From the NCBI GenBank assembly GCA_945890645.1, contig CAMDCV010000017.1, positions 1 to 64,000 on the forward strand: a stretch of DNA of 64,000 nt. The letters run 5' to 3'. How positions within the stretch are numbered: the first letter of the stretch is position 1; each line of letters starts with the position of its first letter. The position numbers and the translations under genes are program-made. This document shows positions 11,897 through 58,150 of this stretch, in pieces. Source of the DNA: Akkermansia muciniphila. GTDB taxonomy: Bacteria; Verrucomicrobiota; Verrucomicrobiia; Verrucomicrobiales; Akkermansiaceae. Under the pieces are notes generated by a model. It was not told where the DNA came from. It saw nothing but the letters and a program-made list of their open reading frames with translations, and made no database searches.

Positions 11897-14800
11897 GTGA
11901 TAAGTATGGTTGGGAAACATGTAACAGTGCTGGGCATTATACTGACGACATCATGGGTAAAAGCATGGAGTCCCGGCATCGCATCTCCCGTGCCCGTAAC
12001 CGACCTAACGGTTGATACGACCAATCGAAATGATGTCATTTCCTTTTATCAACACGTTTTCAAAGCCTCCGAAAATTACGCTTCGGTCATCAACTGGACA
12101 GGCAATCATACGACTTGCACCCCCGGCACCTTGCCGCAGGCCTACGTGGAACTCGTGCGACGCCGAGTCAATTATTTTCGTGCGATGGCTGGCATTACTG
12201 CCAACATCACGATGAATACCAATTCCACCGTAGCGACCGCCAGCGATCCCTCTGCAGCACCATCGACCACCACCAAAGCAGTGGCAGCGCAACAATCGGC
12301 TATGCTGTTGAGCAAAACATTTATCCTTTCGCATACGCCTAATTCAAGCTGGGACTGCTATACAAAGGAAGGTCACAACGGCAGTTTTTTCGGGAATGTC
12401 GGACTCGCGATTTATGGTCCACCGGTTATCGAAGCTTACATGCGCGAAGATGCCGAGAACGCCGCAGCAGGTCACCGTCGCTGGATCCTGTTCACCCGCG
12501 CCACCAATTTTGCCACCGGCGATGTACCTGGTGTAGCTAATACCTTTGCCGCTGCAAATTCTCTCTATGTCAGGCAACGCGATGACGAATTAGTTGATGG
12601 TCAAGTTAAATTTGTCGCTTGGCCACCAGCAGGATACCTGCCATGGCGGAATTCTACGGAATACTGGTCACTCAGCTATCCAGGCGCGGATTTTACGAGT
12701 GCCACGATTTCTGTCACAAAAAATGGAGTAACGGAGCCGATCGATAGCATTAACCGAACGCAAGGCCTTGGCAATAATGGCATCGTCTGGCGGGTTCCCG
12801 GTGTTGCCAAAAGCGGCGTTGATACAACCTACCAAGTAACCGTCGCCAACATTGGGATTTCAGGTGTTCCGAGTTCCCACACCTACAATGTGACTCTTTT
12901 CAATGCAGAAAATTTATTACAAGCTCCAGTCCTCACGGGCGCGAGCACTATTCCACCCGGCGGCAGTAGCATGTTCAGTGTCAGTCCGGTCAGCATTGCA
13001 GATGAATACCGACTCGAGGTCAGCAAAACCATCCCGCTTCCCACCACTACTGTCGAAGGAGGAGAAGATGCCACACCATTACTCCTCATTCCCGGTCCAG
13101 TAACAGGATATCCGATAAGAGCCTCGACTTTCGGTTTTGTCAAAGCCGGTTCAAAGGCTCTGAACCTCGCCTTTACCGAACCGAGTCAATCTGAGCAATG
13201 GATCGAATTGGATCGTACTCTGATGCCGAAGGCCGCTGCGTCGATCAGTTACTACCGCCGCATAGGATACATGAGCAGCAACACGCAGTTCGTGGTGCAA
13301 TACAGCCTCAACAACGATGGTCAGTGGAAAGATATTCCCGGGACGGAAAAATTCGGCAACAGCCCTCTCTCTTCCTCCACCTCGGTGACCGAATCCGGAT
13401 ACTCTGCTATACTCACATTTACTCTACCCTCTGAGACCCTTAACACTCCGACAAGCATTCGTTTTTTGATCCGCAAAGCAGAAGGGTCGGAATTCTTAGC
13501 GGAAGCAGGTACTCCGAACGTATCCGGTACATTTATTGATGATGTTTCTTTCACCAACGTCGATTGGCTCAGCGCCCGCACCTATACAAACTACCCCGCG
13601 AACGCTACGACCGTCACACTTAACGCAACCACAGCGGGCGGGACCATCACCAGCGGAACACAATACAACCTTCGGCTTCAGCCACGCGTCGCTTCCGCAT
13701 GGATGACCGCCAGTACCTTGAAAACCGTTACGAGCGCAGTTGTCACGAATGTCCCTCCCACTCTTGATACAATCAGCAGTCCCCTCACGATTCTAGAAGA
13801 TGCTGGGGCACAAATCATTCCGCTTGCAGGCATCACCGCAGGCTTTGGCGAAACGCAAGCGTTGACGGTCACCGCGACCTCCAGCAATACAACACTGATT
13901 CCCCACCCCACCATCACCTACACCAGTCCCAATACTACTGGGTCTCTACAACTCCAACCAGCGTTGAATCAATCGGGCTCTGCCACCATTACCGTGACAG
14001 TCAATGATGGTCAGGCCACCAATAATACAGTTTCACGCACCTTCACGGTCAACGTCTCGGCAGTCAATGATGCTCCCACGATCTCTATTATCACGGATCG
14101 TAGCATCAATGAAGACACCAATACGGGTGCCATTGCGTTCACCATCGGCGACGTTGAGACAGCGGTGGGATCATTGACGGTCACTCGTGCTTCTCTCAAT
14201 ACTACGCTGCTGCCACTGGCCAACGCCACTCTCGGGGGCAGCGGGGCCAACCGCACCATCACTCTGGCGCCAGTCGTCAACCTATCTGGCACGGCTACGA
14301 TTGAAATCATGGTGAGTGATGGCACCACAATTACAAAGAGGTCGTTTGTTCTCACTGTTCTCCCGATCAACGATGCTCCCACACTTACGACGATTGCGAA
14401 TCGTTCTGCTATTCTTGAGGACGCAACCATGCAAACGGTTGCGCTCAGCGGCATCGGTGCCGGACCTAGCGAAAGCCAAACACTCACCATCACTGCCACC
14501 TCCAGCAATCCGAGCATTATACCCCATCCAACGGTGGTATACACCAGCCCGAATGCCAGCGGCTCTCTTCAATACACGCCCGTTGCGAACGCCAATGGTT
14601 CCGTCACCATCACCGTCACCGTGAATGATGGCCAGGCGAGCAATAACACAGTAGTCCGGAGCTTTACCGCAGCCGTCACCGCTGTTAACGATGCACCCAC
14701 GATTTCAGCGTTCTCACCTCGGATCATGGTGCAAAATACCACTCTTCCAACGATTAATTTTACTGTCGGTGATTTGGAAACGGCGGCAACATCACTAACA

Positions 14801-51278: not shown

Positions 51279-51354
51279 GGAGAAGGGTTTTGCAAACCCT
51301 TTTTCACAACCTGAGTCAAATTCTCTGAAGCAAGGGATTTAAAATCCCTTCTCC
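51279..51354. repeat. Nested inverted-repeat element at the 3' end of the DUF4130 gene
   Basis: Outer arms GGAGAAGGG and CCCTTCTCC enclose two hairpins, AGGGTTT-TGC-AAACCCT (51284-51300) and AAGGGAT-TTAAA-ATCCCTT (51332-51350). The layout, inverted outer arms around two unlike hairpins, is the same as in the 29.1/41.9 kb repeat, though the sequence is different. The stop codon and last five codons of the neighbouring minus-strand gene are inside the right arm. Confidence 0.65.
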
Positions 51355-52208
51355 TTATTCAGCTCTTCATTCATCGCCTGCAGCGATTTGAGATACTTGT
51401 TATCCGGCGCGAGTTTGACCTTTCGATTTTCCGTTTCAAGCATTTGCCTCGTGCGGTTACCGCTCCCGGCGACGAGCTCGGAAATCACCTCGGCTTCGGG
51501 GAGATTTTTCCAGTATTTTTTGGGCATCTGCGACTGCATGGTCTTCGCTTTGAGGCGGGCGGGATTGAAAATGCTGCGATAATACGTCCGCCACAGTTCA
51601 TCGAGGCTGTCTTCATCGGGCGCGGCACTGCGCGCAACTCCCGGCGTGAAATGAAGTTTTTTGCCGTCCCAATGCGCGCATTCGTAGGGCGTGAGGATGG
51701 CCCAATCCATGCCGACAAAACGCTTTTCAAAATAGGAAATCGCGAGGCGCACGATGCGATGCTCCGGCTCGAACCACGCTACGAATTGCTCGCGACCCGT
51801 TGCTTCATTGACACCGACAAGACGAAAGCGGACAAAGGCATGCATTTTATGAATATCGCGTCCTATTGTTTTGCACCATTGCTGGGCTAGGCGCACATCG
51901 GGATCGGTCGTCATGCCGAGTAGGTGCCTTTCACCGCCATGCGTGAGTCGCCATAACATCCGATATAGAAGCGCCCATCGGCGTGAATCCGAGTGCGCGG
52001 CGACAGTGGCCGCGATGTCCATGAAGGCTTTGGAAACTTTGGGCGGCGGCGATGAGGCATAGGGCGTGATTTCTTCGTGAACAAATAGAGTTTTCCCCTG
52101 CTCTTCATCGTTCCATAAAATTCCCTCAGGTGGTACGGCCTCGGCGAGCAGCCGACGAGCCTGCGCGCGCCATGATTCAAGACTCGGCTCAATGACAATC
52201 GTGCGCAT
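51339..52208 (-). CDS. DUF4130 / TIGR03915 family putative DNA-repair protein
   Basis: A 289-residue protein of the family always found beside a particular radical SAM protein. Marks: LWRLTHGGERHLLGMTTDPDVR, MHAFVRFRLVG, WFEPEHRIVRLAISYFEKRF and WRTYYRSIFNPARLK. The family is known as SAM-linked DNA metabolism and is sometimes fused to UdgX-type uracil-DNA proteins; biochemical function is not settled. It starts one base after the radical SAM stop codon, thus a strict two-gene unit. Its last codons run into the repeat at 51279-51354. Confidence 0.9.
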   Translation of the reverse strand: MRTIVIEPSLESWRAQARRLLAEAVPPEGILWNDEEQGKTLFVHEEITPYASSPPPKVSKAFMDIAATVAAHSDSRRWALLYRMLWRLTHGGERHLLGMTTDPDVRLAQQWCKTIGRDIHKMHAFVRFRLVGVNEATGREQFVAWFEPEHRIVRLAISYFEKRFVGMDWAILTPYECAHWDGKKLHFTPGVARSAAPDEDSLDELWRTYYRSIFNPARLKAKTMQSQMPKKYWKNLPEAEVISELVAGSGNRTRQMLETENRKVKLAPDNKYLKSLQAMNEELNKEKGF

Positions 52209-52209
52209 G

Positions 52210-53496
52210 TTAGATTTCTCCCGAACGCGCGGAAAGGATGTCACTCGGTTTTGGCGCAGGGTTTCCAAAATTCAGTTCCAACTGTTTCGGTGGCGGCAAA
52301 AATCGAGCGCGCAAATTGTCATCATCCAGCCCGAGCTGCAGCGGATGGTGATCGGTCGTGATGATGAACGGCATGATTTTTTTCATCTGCAATCGCAAGG
52401 TCAACAAGTCCGCCAAGCGAAGTTGCGTGTAGCGTCGCGCGGCGATGATGCGCTCGACATTGCGAACGCCGATTCCCGGAATGCGCAATAGCGATTCGCG
52501 CGGCGCAACGTTGATATCGATGGGAAAGGACGCGCGATTTCTCAGGGCCCACGAAAGTTTCGGATCGAGATCAAGATCCAGATTGGGCTCCGCGGCGGTG
52601 GTGATTTCCTCGACAGAAAAATGATAGTAGCGGAGCAACCAATCCGCTTGGTAGAGGCGATGTTCGCGCACTAGCGGTGGGGATTTCAGTGGCAGAATAA
52701 TAGAGGGTTCCGGGATCGGGCTGAAGCCGGAATAATAGACGCGGCGGAGCTTGTAGCCATTGTAAAGAGTATCGGCCTTTTTCAAAATCACGAGGTCCGT
52801 GGAGTCATCGGCACCGATGATCATCTGCGTGCTCTGTCCGGTGGCAAAAGGGGCGGGTTTGGGAGCATCGGGCTTCCGCCGTTCGTTGTGCGATTCTTGA
52901 ATTTTATCGCGAATGTGCCCCATGGCTTCTTGCGTGCGCTGCAGGTTTTTTTCCGGAGCGAGAGTCGCCAGACTTTCCTGCGTGGGTAGCTCGATATTGA
53001 TGCTAATCCGATCGGCATATCGACCTGCGAGCTGGATTAATGCGGGCGATGCCTCGGGGATGGTTTTCAAATGGATGTAGCCGCGAAAATGATGCTCCTC
53101 CCGCAACCGCCGCGCGACATCGATGACCAACTCCATGGTGTAATCCGCACTGCGAATGATGCCGCTACTGAGGAACAAGCCCTCGATGTAATTTCGCTTG
53201 TAAAAGTCTAACGTAATTTTCACCACTTCCTCCGGTGTGAAGCGCGCGCGCTGCACATTGCTCGAGCGACGGTTGATGCAATAGTGGCAATCATAGAGAC
53301 ACGCATTGGTCATCAGCACTTTCAAAAGTGACACACAGCGACCATCAGGCGTGTAGGAATGGCATATCCCCGCGCCGCCCGTGGAGCCGACACCTTTGCC
53401 GCCGCGCGAATCTTTTTTCGCCGCGCCACTGCTCGCGCAGGAGGCATCGTATTTCGCCGCATCAGCTAGGATTTCCAGTTTCTTCGTAAGCTCCAT
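52210..53496 (-). CDS. Putative DNA modification/repair radical SAM protein (TIGR03916)
   Basis: A 428-residue radical SAM enzyme. The cluster-binding CLYDCHYC (C66, C70, C73) is complete; a TIM barrel follows, and the C-terminal part has a helix-hairpin-helix segment (LLRIPGIGVRNVERIIAARRY) that suggests DNA binding. N-terminal Gly/Ser/Lys-rich region with extra Cys (20, 45, 54). ATG 53496 is the start; a TTG three codons earlier lies in the operator. An SOS-type box and a -35/-10 pair lie directly upstream. It is coupled to the DUF4130 gene. Confidence 0.9.
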   Translation of the reverse strand: MELTKKLEILADAAKYDASCASSGAAKKDSRGGKGVGSTGGAGICHSYTPDGRCVSLLKVLMTNACLYDCHYCINRRSSNVQRARFTPEEVVKITLDFYKRNYIEGLFLSSGIIRSADYTMELVIDVARRLREEHHFRGYIHLKTIPEASPALIQLAGRYADRISINIELPTQESLATLAPEKNLQRTQEAMGHIRDKIQESHNERRKPDAPKPAPFATGQSTQMIIGADDSTDLVILKKADTLYNGYKLRRVYYSGFSPIPEPSIILPLKSPPLVREHRLYQADWLLRYYHFSVEEITTAAEPNLDLDLDPKLSWALRNRASFPIDINVAPRESLLRIPGIGVRNVERIIAARRYTQLRLADLLTLRLQMKKIMPFIITTDHHPLQLGLDDDNLRARFLPPPKQLELNFGNPAPKPSDILSARSGEI

Positions 53497-53498
53497 TT

Positions 53499-53512
53499 TG
53501 TTCAAATGAACT
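53499..53512 (-). promoter_or_regulatory. LexA-type SOS box at the radical SAM/DUF4130 pair
   Basis: TGTTC-AAAT-GAACT on the plus strand keeps the full GTTC-N4-GAAC core of the verrucomicrobial LexA site, with one outer base changed. It ends three bases before the ATG. Upstream on the minus strand are GTGACA (53532-53537) and TACAGT (53510-53515) with 16 bases between, so the box overlaps the -10 region and start site, the usual position for repression. Confidence 0.7.
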
Positions 53513-53537
53513 GTATTTCACATTCGCGATTTGTCAC
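53510..53537 (-). promoter_or_regulatory. Candidate sigma-70-type promoter of the radical SAM gene
   Basis: GTGACA, 16 bases, TACAGT on the minus strand, just upstream of and overlapping the SOS-type box. Moderate match to TTGACA/TATAAT. Confidence 0.45.
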
Positions 53538-53549
53538 GAAGTTTTGTGG

Positions 53550-53795
53550 CTAAAATGTTTCTGCCTCCGGCCCTTTGAATCGAGCTTCCATCAACTTGCG
53601 GTGCTTCGTCACGCGACCACTCACCCGCTTGCGCCACATCCGATAGCTGGAGGGCTTGAGCTCGGCGCGCATGATCTCGATGACTTGTTTTTCCACAAGA
53701 CCCGTTCGTTTCTGAATGTCTTCAAAGCTCGTGCGATCTTCCCACGCAAGCCGGATGATTTGCGAAGTTTGTTCGGATGTGAATTTTGATTTCAT
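53550..53795 (-). CDS. DUF2805 / TIGR03643 family small protein
   Basis: An 81-residue basic protein with helix-turn-helix character: TSEQTSQIIRLAWEDRTSFEDIQKRTGLVEKQVIEIMR in short helices, then YRMWRKRVSGR and a Lys/Arg-rich end. Widely conserved, function unknown. ATG 53795 is used. It precedes the radical SAM gene on the same strand but 53 bases with a separate promoter lie between. Confidence 0.85.
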   Translation of the reverse strand: MKSKFTSEQTSQIIRLAWEDRTSFEDIQKRTGLVEKQVIEIMRAELKPSSYRMWRKRVSGRVTKHRKLMEARFKGPEAETF

Positions 53796-58136: not shown

Positions 58137-58150
58137 TGTTCGATTGAACA
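58137..58150 (-). promoter_or_regulatory. LexA-type SOS box of recA
   Basis: TGTTC-GATT-GAACA, a perfect palindrome of the form TGTTC-N4-GAACA that I recall as the reported LexA motif of Verrucomicrobia. It lies 61-74 bases before the recA ATG. Just downstream on the minus strand is TTGACG (58122-58127), a fair -35 box with a weak -10 (AAAATG). Confidence 0.85.

Follow-up and report, generated by a model that had tools for sequence, protein, structure and literature searches.

Repair of DNA by radical chemistry is already known from spore photoproduct lyase (SplB), and so is the control of this repair by LexA. SOS control of COG4277 together with COG1573 is reported for Verrucomicrobia, Alphaproteobacteria, and Bacteroidetes in PMC8565304 and in the articles that it cites. 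Aravind 2013 predicted DUF4130 to be an enzyme related to mutagenesis, with links to UDGs and SplB-like radical SAM proteins, and suggested that DUF4130 with a UDG might modify thymines (PMC3765255). The physiological role of UdgX is not settled (PMC10359453).

Here we describe a gene pair of this kind in a 64,000-nucleotide stretch of Akkermansia muciniphila DNA (the window). The pair is a member of a widespread cassette family whose SOS control is already published. A preliminary description of the locus had suggested that radical DNA repair under LexA control would be a new type of reaction worth testing. SplB is a precedent for that combination, and SOS control of this operon had likewise been reported (PMC8565304). 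The useful additions from our sequence comparisons are a clamp-type tail and an extra cysteine site. In our main reading, to which we assign a probability of about 0.6, the radical SAM enzyme is induced by the SOS response, docks on the clamp, and works together with DUF4130 on a damaged base in DNA, the substrate and the reaction being what we infer.

A predicted LexA operator at the start of the radical SAM gene

The genes of the radical SAM protein and the DUF4130 protein are separated by one base (52209), as the preliminary description had it. Their positions and those of the associated features are given in Table 1. The radical SAM protein matched TIGR03916 with 565.8 bits against a curated cutoff of 343.5 and also matched Pfam PF04055. 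The DUF4130 protein matched TIGR03915 with 216 bits (cutoff, 112.25). The next gene upstream, also on the minus strand (53550-53795), encodes an 81-aa TIGR03643/DUF2805 protein and lies 53 bases from the ATG of the radical SAM gene.

Table 1. Features of the gene pair and its control region, with positions in the window
Feature	Coordinates	Strand	Evidence
DUF4130 protein, 289 aa, TIGR03915, no UdgX fusion	51339..52208	-	TIGR03915, 216 bits; PF13566
Radical SAM protein, 428 aa, TIGR03916/COG4277 type	52210..53496	-	TIGR03916, PF04055, barrel fold
QLELNF, beta-clamp-binding-like motif, residues 405-410	52267..52284	-	Homologue tails
Helix-hairpin-helix segment LLRIPGIGVRNVERIIAARR, residues ~331-356	52429..52506	-	Weak ComEA/RuvA HhH matches
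Radical SAM cluster codons, C66-X3-C70-X2-C73	53278..53301	-	Invariant in 105/105 homologues
Segment with C20, C45, C54, and H46	53335..53439	-	Invariant in 105/105; possible second metal/Fe-S site
Predicted LexA (SOS) operator TGTTC-AAAT-GAACT = TGTTCAAATGAACT	53499..53512	.	9/10 fixed positions; conserved at relatives' start codons
Sigma-70-like promoter GTGACA-16-TACAGT	53510..53537	-	Consensus match only; -10 overlaps operator
recA LexA box TGTTCGATTGAACA, for comparison	58137..58150	.	recA identified by profile match

The LexA motif of the Verrucomicrobia, reportedly described by Erill et al. in 2016, is said to be TGTTC-N4-GAACA. The predicted operator agrees with nine of its ten fixed positions and has T rather than A at the last outer base. 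The claim that this box equals the recA box of the window save for one outer base is borne out over the ten fixed positions; two spacer bases also differ. The radical SAM ATG occupies 53496-53494 on the minus strand, so that two bases separate it from the operator. The earlier placement of the box over the -10 element stands, whereas the distance of three bases to the ATG does not.

The core motif TGTTC-N4-GAAC has about 17 unique sites in the 3.82-Mb genome, and about 0.0003 would be expected within 60 nt upstream of one given start. It showed no genome-wide enrichment over a reversed control, and the evidence for an operator is therefore positional and comparative. As judged from the sequence, the LexA-box signal lies in position and company and not in genome-wide abundance. 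That company consists of motif sites directly before lexA, recA, ssb, dinB, and an SNF2-type helicase gene. The genome has a single lexA, with the box TGTTCTGTCGAACA in its own promoter, and a lexA autoregulation box is present in many relatives.

In the same genome, the site TGTTCAATCGAACT (G000:C3:77761-77774; L003), which has the same outer-base variant as the radical SAM operator, is flanked by two divergent genes, one encoding an SNF2-type helicase and the other a DedA-like (VTT) membrane protein. Two genes, one for an Eco57I-type methylase and one for a BsuBI/PstI-type restriction endonuclease, also have the same palindrome at their start codons, as TGTTCACTTGAACT and TGTTCATTTGAACT (G000:C28:10438-10451 and 13069-13082; L013 and L014), and their upstream regions are near-duplicates. 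These palindromes may mark either an SOS-controlled restriction system or a restriction-modification control box that mimics a LexA box.

A phylogenetic footprint, proposed earlier as a check, came out in favor of conservation. We examined the 60 nt from the start codon in 26 relatives that carry the radical SAM gene (own genome excluded); the operator was present with at most one mismatch in 13 and with at most two in 19. Random segments of the same loci gave 0 and 0.016 (1.6%), respectively. The exact position of the operator varies among species, as would be expected if it is under selection. In two relatives (G008 and G021), the motif is retained at lexA and missing from the radical SAM gene, and the operator is also absent from the closest named homologues (L053-L057). 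In three others (G044, G056, and G036), the palindrome is absent from both lexA and the radical SAM gene, which suggests a change of LexA operator in that family. In the G044 lexA promoter (L145), a direct repeat, two copies of AGATCATATGAAC, replaces the TGTTC-N4-GAACA palindrome.

The operon appears under unrelated operators in other bacterial classes

We gathered 80 named loci for a comparison of operators across classes. In the alphaproteobacteria, GTTC-N7-GTTC, which we take to be the LexA box of that class, was found within 150 nt upstream in 41 of 43 operons (expected, 0.3). CTGT-N8-ACAG was present at the operon in all three betaproteobacteria and in one Pseudomonas. None of these boxes was present at the operon in the six Xanthomonads tested, which share a GTCTCA-N5-TGAGAC-type palindrome at about the same place upstream of it. 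Two Stenotrophomonas genomes contained three exact sites each, and the reversed control gave none. These sites lie at this operon, uvrA, a DEAH-box helicase gene, and a PA0069-type radical SAM gene; at the operon, the palindrome is exact in one genome and has one mismatch in the other. Exact sites are rare in the Stenotrophomonas and Luteimonas genomes (L152-L158; one to three per genome, and none for the reversed control). The Xanthomonads thus apparently have a LexA-independent or altered-LexA damage regulon with this operator. Its occurrence at both uvrA and the pair in Stenotrophomonas connects the pair with damage of the nucleotide-excision type.

The operon has apparently come under local damage control repeatedly, by operators of unrelated sequence, and such recurrence is strong functional evidence. 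These observations bear on the alternative that the palindrome arose by chance and that the operon escapes LexA regulation in this organism. The mismatched outer base and the absence of genome-wide enrichment speak for this alternative, but the box sits at a start codon and a -10 element, is conserved in relatives, and has local LexA boxes as counterparts in other classes. We regard it as extremely improbable. The LexA control proposed in the preliminary description is strongly supported by the conserved operator and by the local operator types acquired anew in other classes.

The radical SAM protein has additional invariant cysteines and a helix-hairpin-helix segment

Both protein features named earlier, the intact cysteine cluster (CX3CX2C; C66, C70, and C73) and the helix-hairpin-helix segment, are present. 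Six cysteines are invariant across 105 homologues: the three of the cluster and C20, C45, and C54; H46 is invariant as well. The additional cysteines suggest a second metal or Fe-S site, in a segment modeled with low confidence where cluster binding is putative.

The barrel had lipoyl synthase and HydE as structural neighbors (Z, 16 to 17; 212 to 228 residues; rmsd, ~3; 10 to 16% identity). In the model, this likeness indicates the radical SAM fold and not the reaction. A sequence search found no solved relatives. SPL was not among the radical SAM fold matches listed, an absence that we do not count as evidence. These neighbors, the three extra cysteines (auxiliary clusters of lipoyl synthase and MiaB are held by three cysteines), and the NCBIfam name of TIGR03916, putative DNA modification/repair radical SAM, would suit an enzyme that modifies DNA instead of repairing it. 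Such an enzyme would use an auxiliary cluster, in the manner of lipoyl synthase or MiaB, to methylate bases or insert sulfur into them by a radical reaction, as marks at SOS-stressed forks. The structural similarity is, however, general for the barrel, and the cysteine spacing is unlike that of lipoyl synthase, which has a CX4CX5C pattern. SOS control and the UdgX fusions of relatives indicate damage, and we consider such marking distinctly improbable.

The C terminus resembles a clamp-docking motif

The tail of the radical SAM protein, a region of low pLDDT, carries a beta-clamp-binding-like motif of the QL(S/D)LF type (QLELNF). A relaxed form of the motif was found in the tails of 103 of 105 homologues and a strict form in 88, compared with 1.3% of shuffled tails. 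The canonical QLSLF and its relatives QLSIF, QLSLGF, QLSFF, and QLSLW occur in Bacteroidota, Clostridia, Acinetobacter, a gut contig, and Gemmatimonadota. In the SOS mutasome, ImuB uses a motif of this sort for docking (QLPLWG; PMC10421592). The tail resembles a site for docking on the replication clamp, and it is from this short motif that we infer clamp binding. A narrow literature search found no report that joins radical SAM proteins with clamp binding or remarks on the tail of this family.

DUF4130 is a strict partner and is fused to UdgX in many relatives

The DUF4130 and radical SAM genes share a strand in 101 of 107 loci, and in 89 of these no more than 50 nt separate them. In the four relatives whose sequence extends far enough downstream but shows no DUF4130 close by, a copy lies elsewhere in the genome. 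Conversely, ten relatives that lack the radical SAM gene also lack DUF4130, and none was seen in G005, where a contig end truncates the radical SAM gene. By this strict co-occurrence, DUF4130 is an obligate partner of the radical SAM protein. We considered that split DUF4130 genes might keep a box of their own and rejected this: in split-gene relatives, DUF4130 has no clear LexA box, and only the radical SAM gene retains one, which is weak.

Co-occurrence that persists even when the genes are unlinked would also be expected if DUF4130 were the substrate, as a protein partner is for many radical SAM enzymes. The radical SAM enzyme would then install a radical or a crosslink in DUF4130, which would be the DNA-acting protein. 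Against this, the helix-hairpin-helix and the clamp-like tail sit on the radical SAM protein itself, and in split genes the weak LexA box stays with the radical SAM gene only. We judge this arrangement quite unlikely and favor a radical SAM enzyme that itself acts on DNA.

In 68 of the 101 paired loci, DUF4130 carries a fused UdgX-type uracil-DNA glycosylase. GEQPG is present in 68/68 of the fused forms, motif B in 65/68, and the R-loop xRxH in 64/68; Mycobacterium smegmatis UdgX, a self-crosslinking enzyme, has this signature (PMC10359453). The 289-aa protein in the window stops after DUF4130 and is not of the UdgX-fused (TIGR03914) form, and its genome encodes no TIGR03914 protein over the cutoff (best match, 84 bits versus 190, without GEQPG). 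The link between DUF4130 and uracil-DNA proteins that had been put forward thus holds in relatives, through the fusions; in the present genome, DUF4130 is unfused and no UdgX passes the cutoff.

The UdgX fusion bears on a further alternative, direct reversal as by spore photoproduct lyase, in which a UV or crosslink thymine lesion would be split with a single cluster and DUF4130 would be the lesion-recognition subunit. SPL sets the precedent for radical SAM DNA repair, the Xanthomonad operator is common to uvrA, and Aravind 2013 calls the type SplB-like and suggests thymine modification by DUF4130 with a UDG (PMC3765255). Pure reversal, however, gives no reason to expect a UdgX fusion or three extra invariant cysteines. 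COG4277 is listed separately from SplB (COG1533) in PMC8565304, and our HMM scans assigned TIGR03916 and no SPL family; no SPL model in NCBIfam or Pfam matched at an E value of 0.001. We consider direct reversal unlikely.

The DUF4130 model had a pLDDT of 87.5. Its top fold matches all belonged to the DHH/DHHA1-type phosphoesterase superfamily, with PAP phosphatase at Z 8.5 (rmsd, 4.3; 179 aligned) and RecJ at 7.9 (3.9; 177), values near the usual background; the absence of better matches is not counted as evidence. Two records in a phage collection (CAKLQH020000003.1 and CAKLQF020000004.1), named Acinetobacter phage, carry the pair beside glyS/glyQ, and at least one of them looks like bacterial chromosome filed as phage. 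The other phage-collection matches to the pair were mostly unannotated fecal contigs. The PADLOC anti-phage defense models matched neither protein.

A proposed radical base-repair step in the SOS response

A role in DNA damage, as the preliminary description had suggested, is well supported by SOS control, the helix-hairpin-helix, the UdgX fusion, the clamp-type tail, and the operator shared with uvrA in Stenotrophomonas. We propose that LexA bound at 53499-53512 would cover the -10 element and the transcription start and keep the two-gene operon off, and that RecA-dependent cleavage of LexA after DNA damage would turn it on. The C-terminal QLELNF could then anchor the radical SAM protein to the beta sliding clamp, and its helix-hairpin-helix domain could grip DNA; both motifs are present and both binding activities are predicted. 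Its [4Fe-4S] cluster would cleave SAM and direct the 5'-deoxyadenosyl radical at a damaged or modified DNA base at a blocked fork or gap, and the second metal site at the invariant C20, C45, and C54 may assist the reaction. DUF4130 probably presents the lesion or completes the reaction. In many relatives, the fused UdgX would capture or remove a uracil-like product or an abasic site, a step that in the present genome would be absent or performed by other proteins.

A bolder version, offered tentatively and at less than even odds, is that the enzyme, docked on the clamp and equipped with a second metal site, attacks damaged bases by a radical reaction without precedent among known repair enzymes and, in many species, feeds the self-crosslinking UdgX. 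If this is true, UdgX gains a physiological partner and the SOS response gains a radical base-repair step at the fork. Because the role of UdgX is not settled (PMC10359453), its partnership with the pair is a direct lead. We found no literature on the radical SAM protein with UdgX or on mutant phenotypes. The pair is among the more widespread SOS-controlled gene pairs of unsolved chemistry, and the tail, the extra cysteines, and the UdgX fusions lead to specific predictions that can be tested, on the site of action (the clamp), on the requirements (SAM, DNA, two metal sites, and DUF4130), and on the product that UdgX might capture.

Comparison with known systems

The locus is closest to the TIGR03916/TIGR03915(/TIGR03914) cassette, with which it shares the families, their order, strict pairing, and SOS control; it differs as the unfused form without UdgX and is otherwise ordinary. 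With the Verrucomicrobia LexA regulon it has in common a TGTTC-N4-GAACA-type operator, an autoregulated lexA, and boxes at recA, ssb, and dinB, whereas its own predicted operator has T in place of A at the outer base. SplB (COG1533) resembles the radical SAM protein in its CX3CX2C cluster and its SOS-linked DNA repair; the protein described here differs in having three more invariant cysteines, a helix-hairpin-helix, a clamp-like tail, and DUF4130 as a separate partner. The M. smegmatis UdgX is recognizable by motif A (GEQPG), motif B, and the R-loop His in the DUF4130-fused domain of relatives, a domain that is absent from the present locus. Lipoyl synthase and HydE share the radical SAM barrel only: they lack the helix-hairpin-helix and the clamp tail and have another cysteine pattern upstream.
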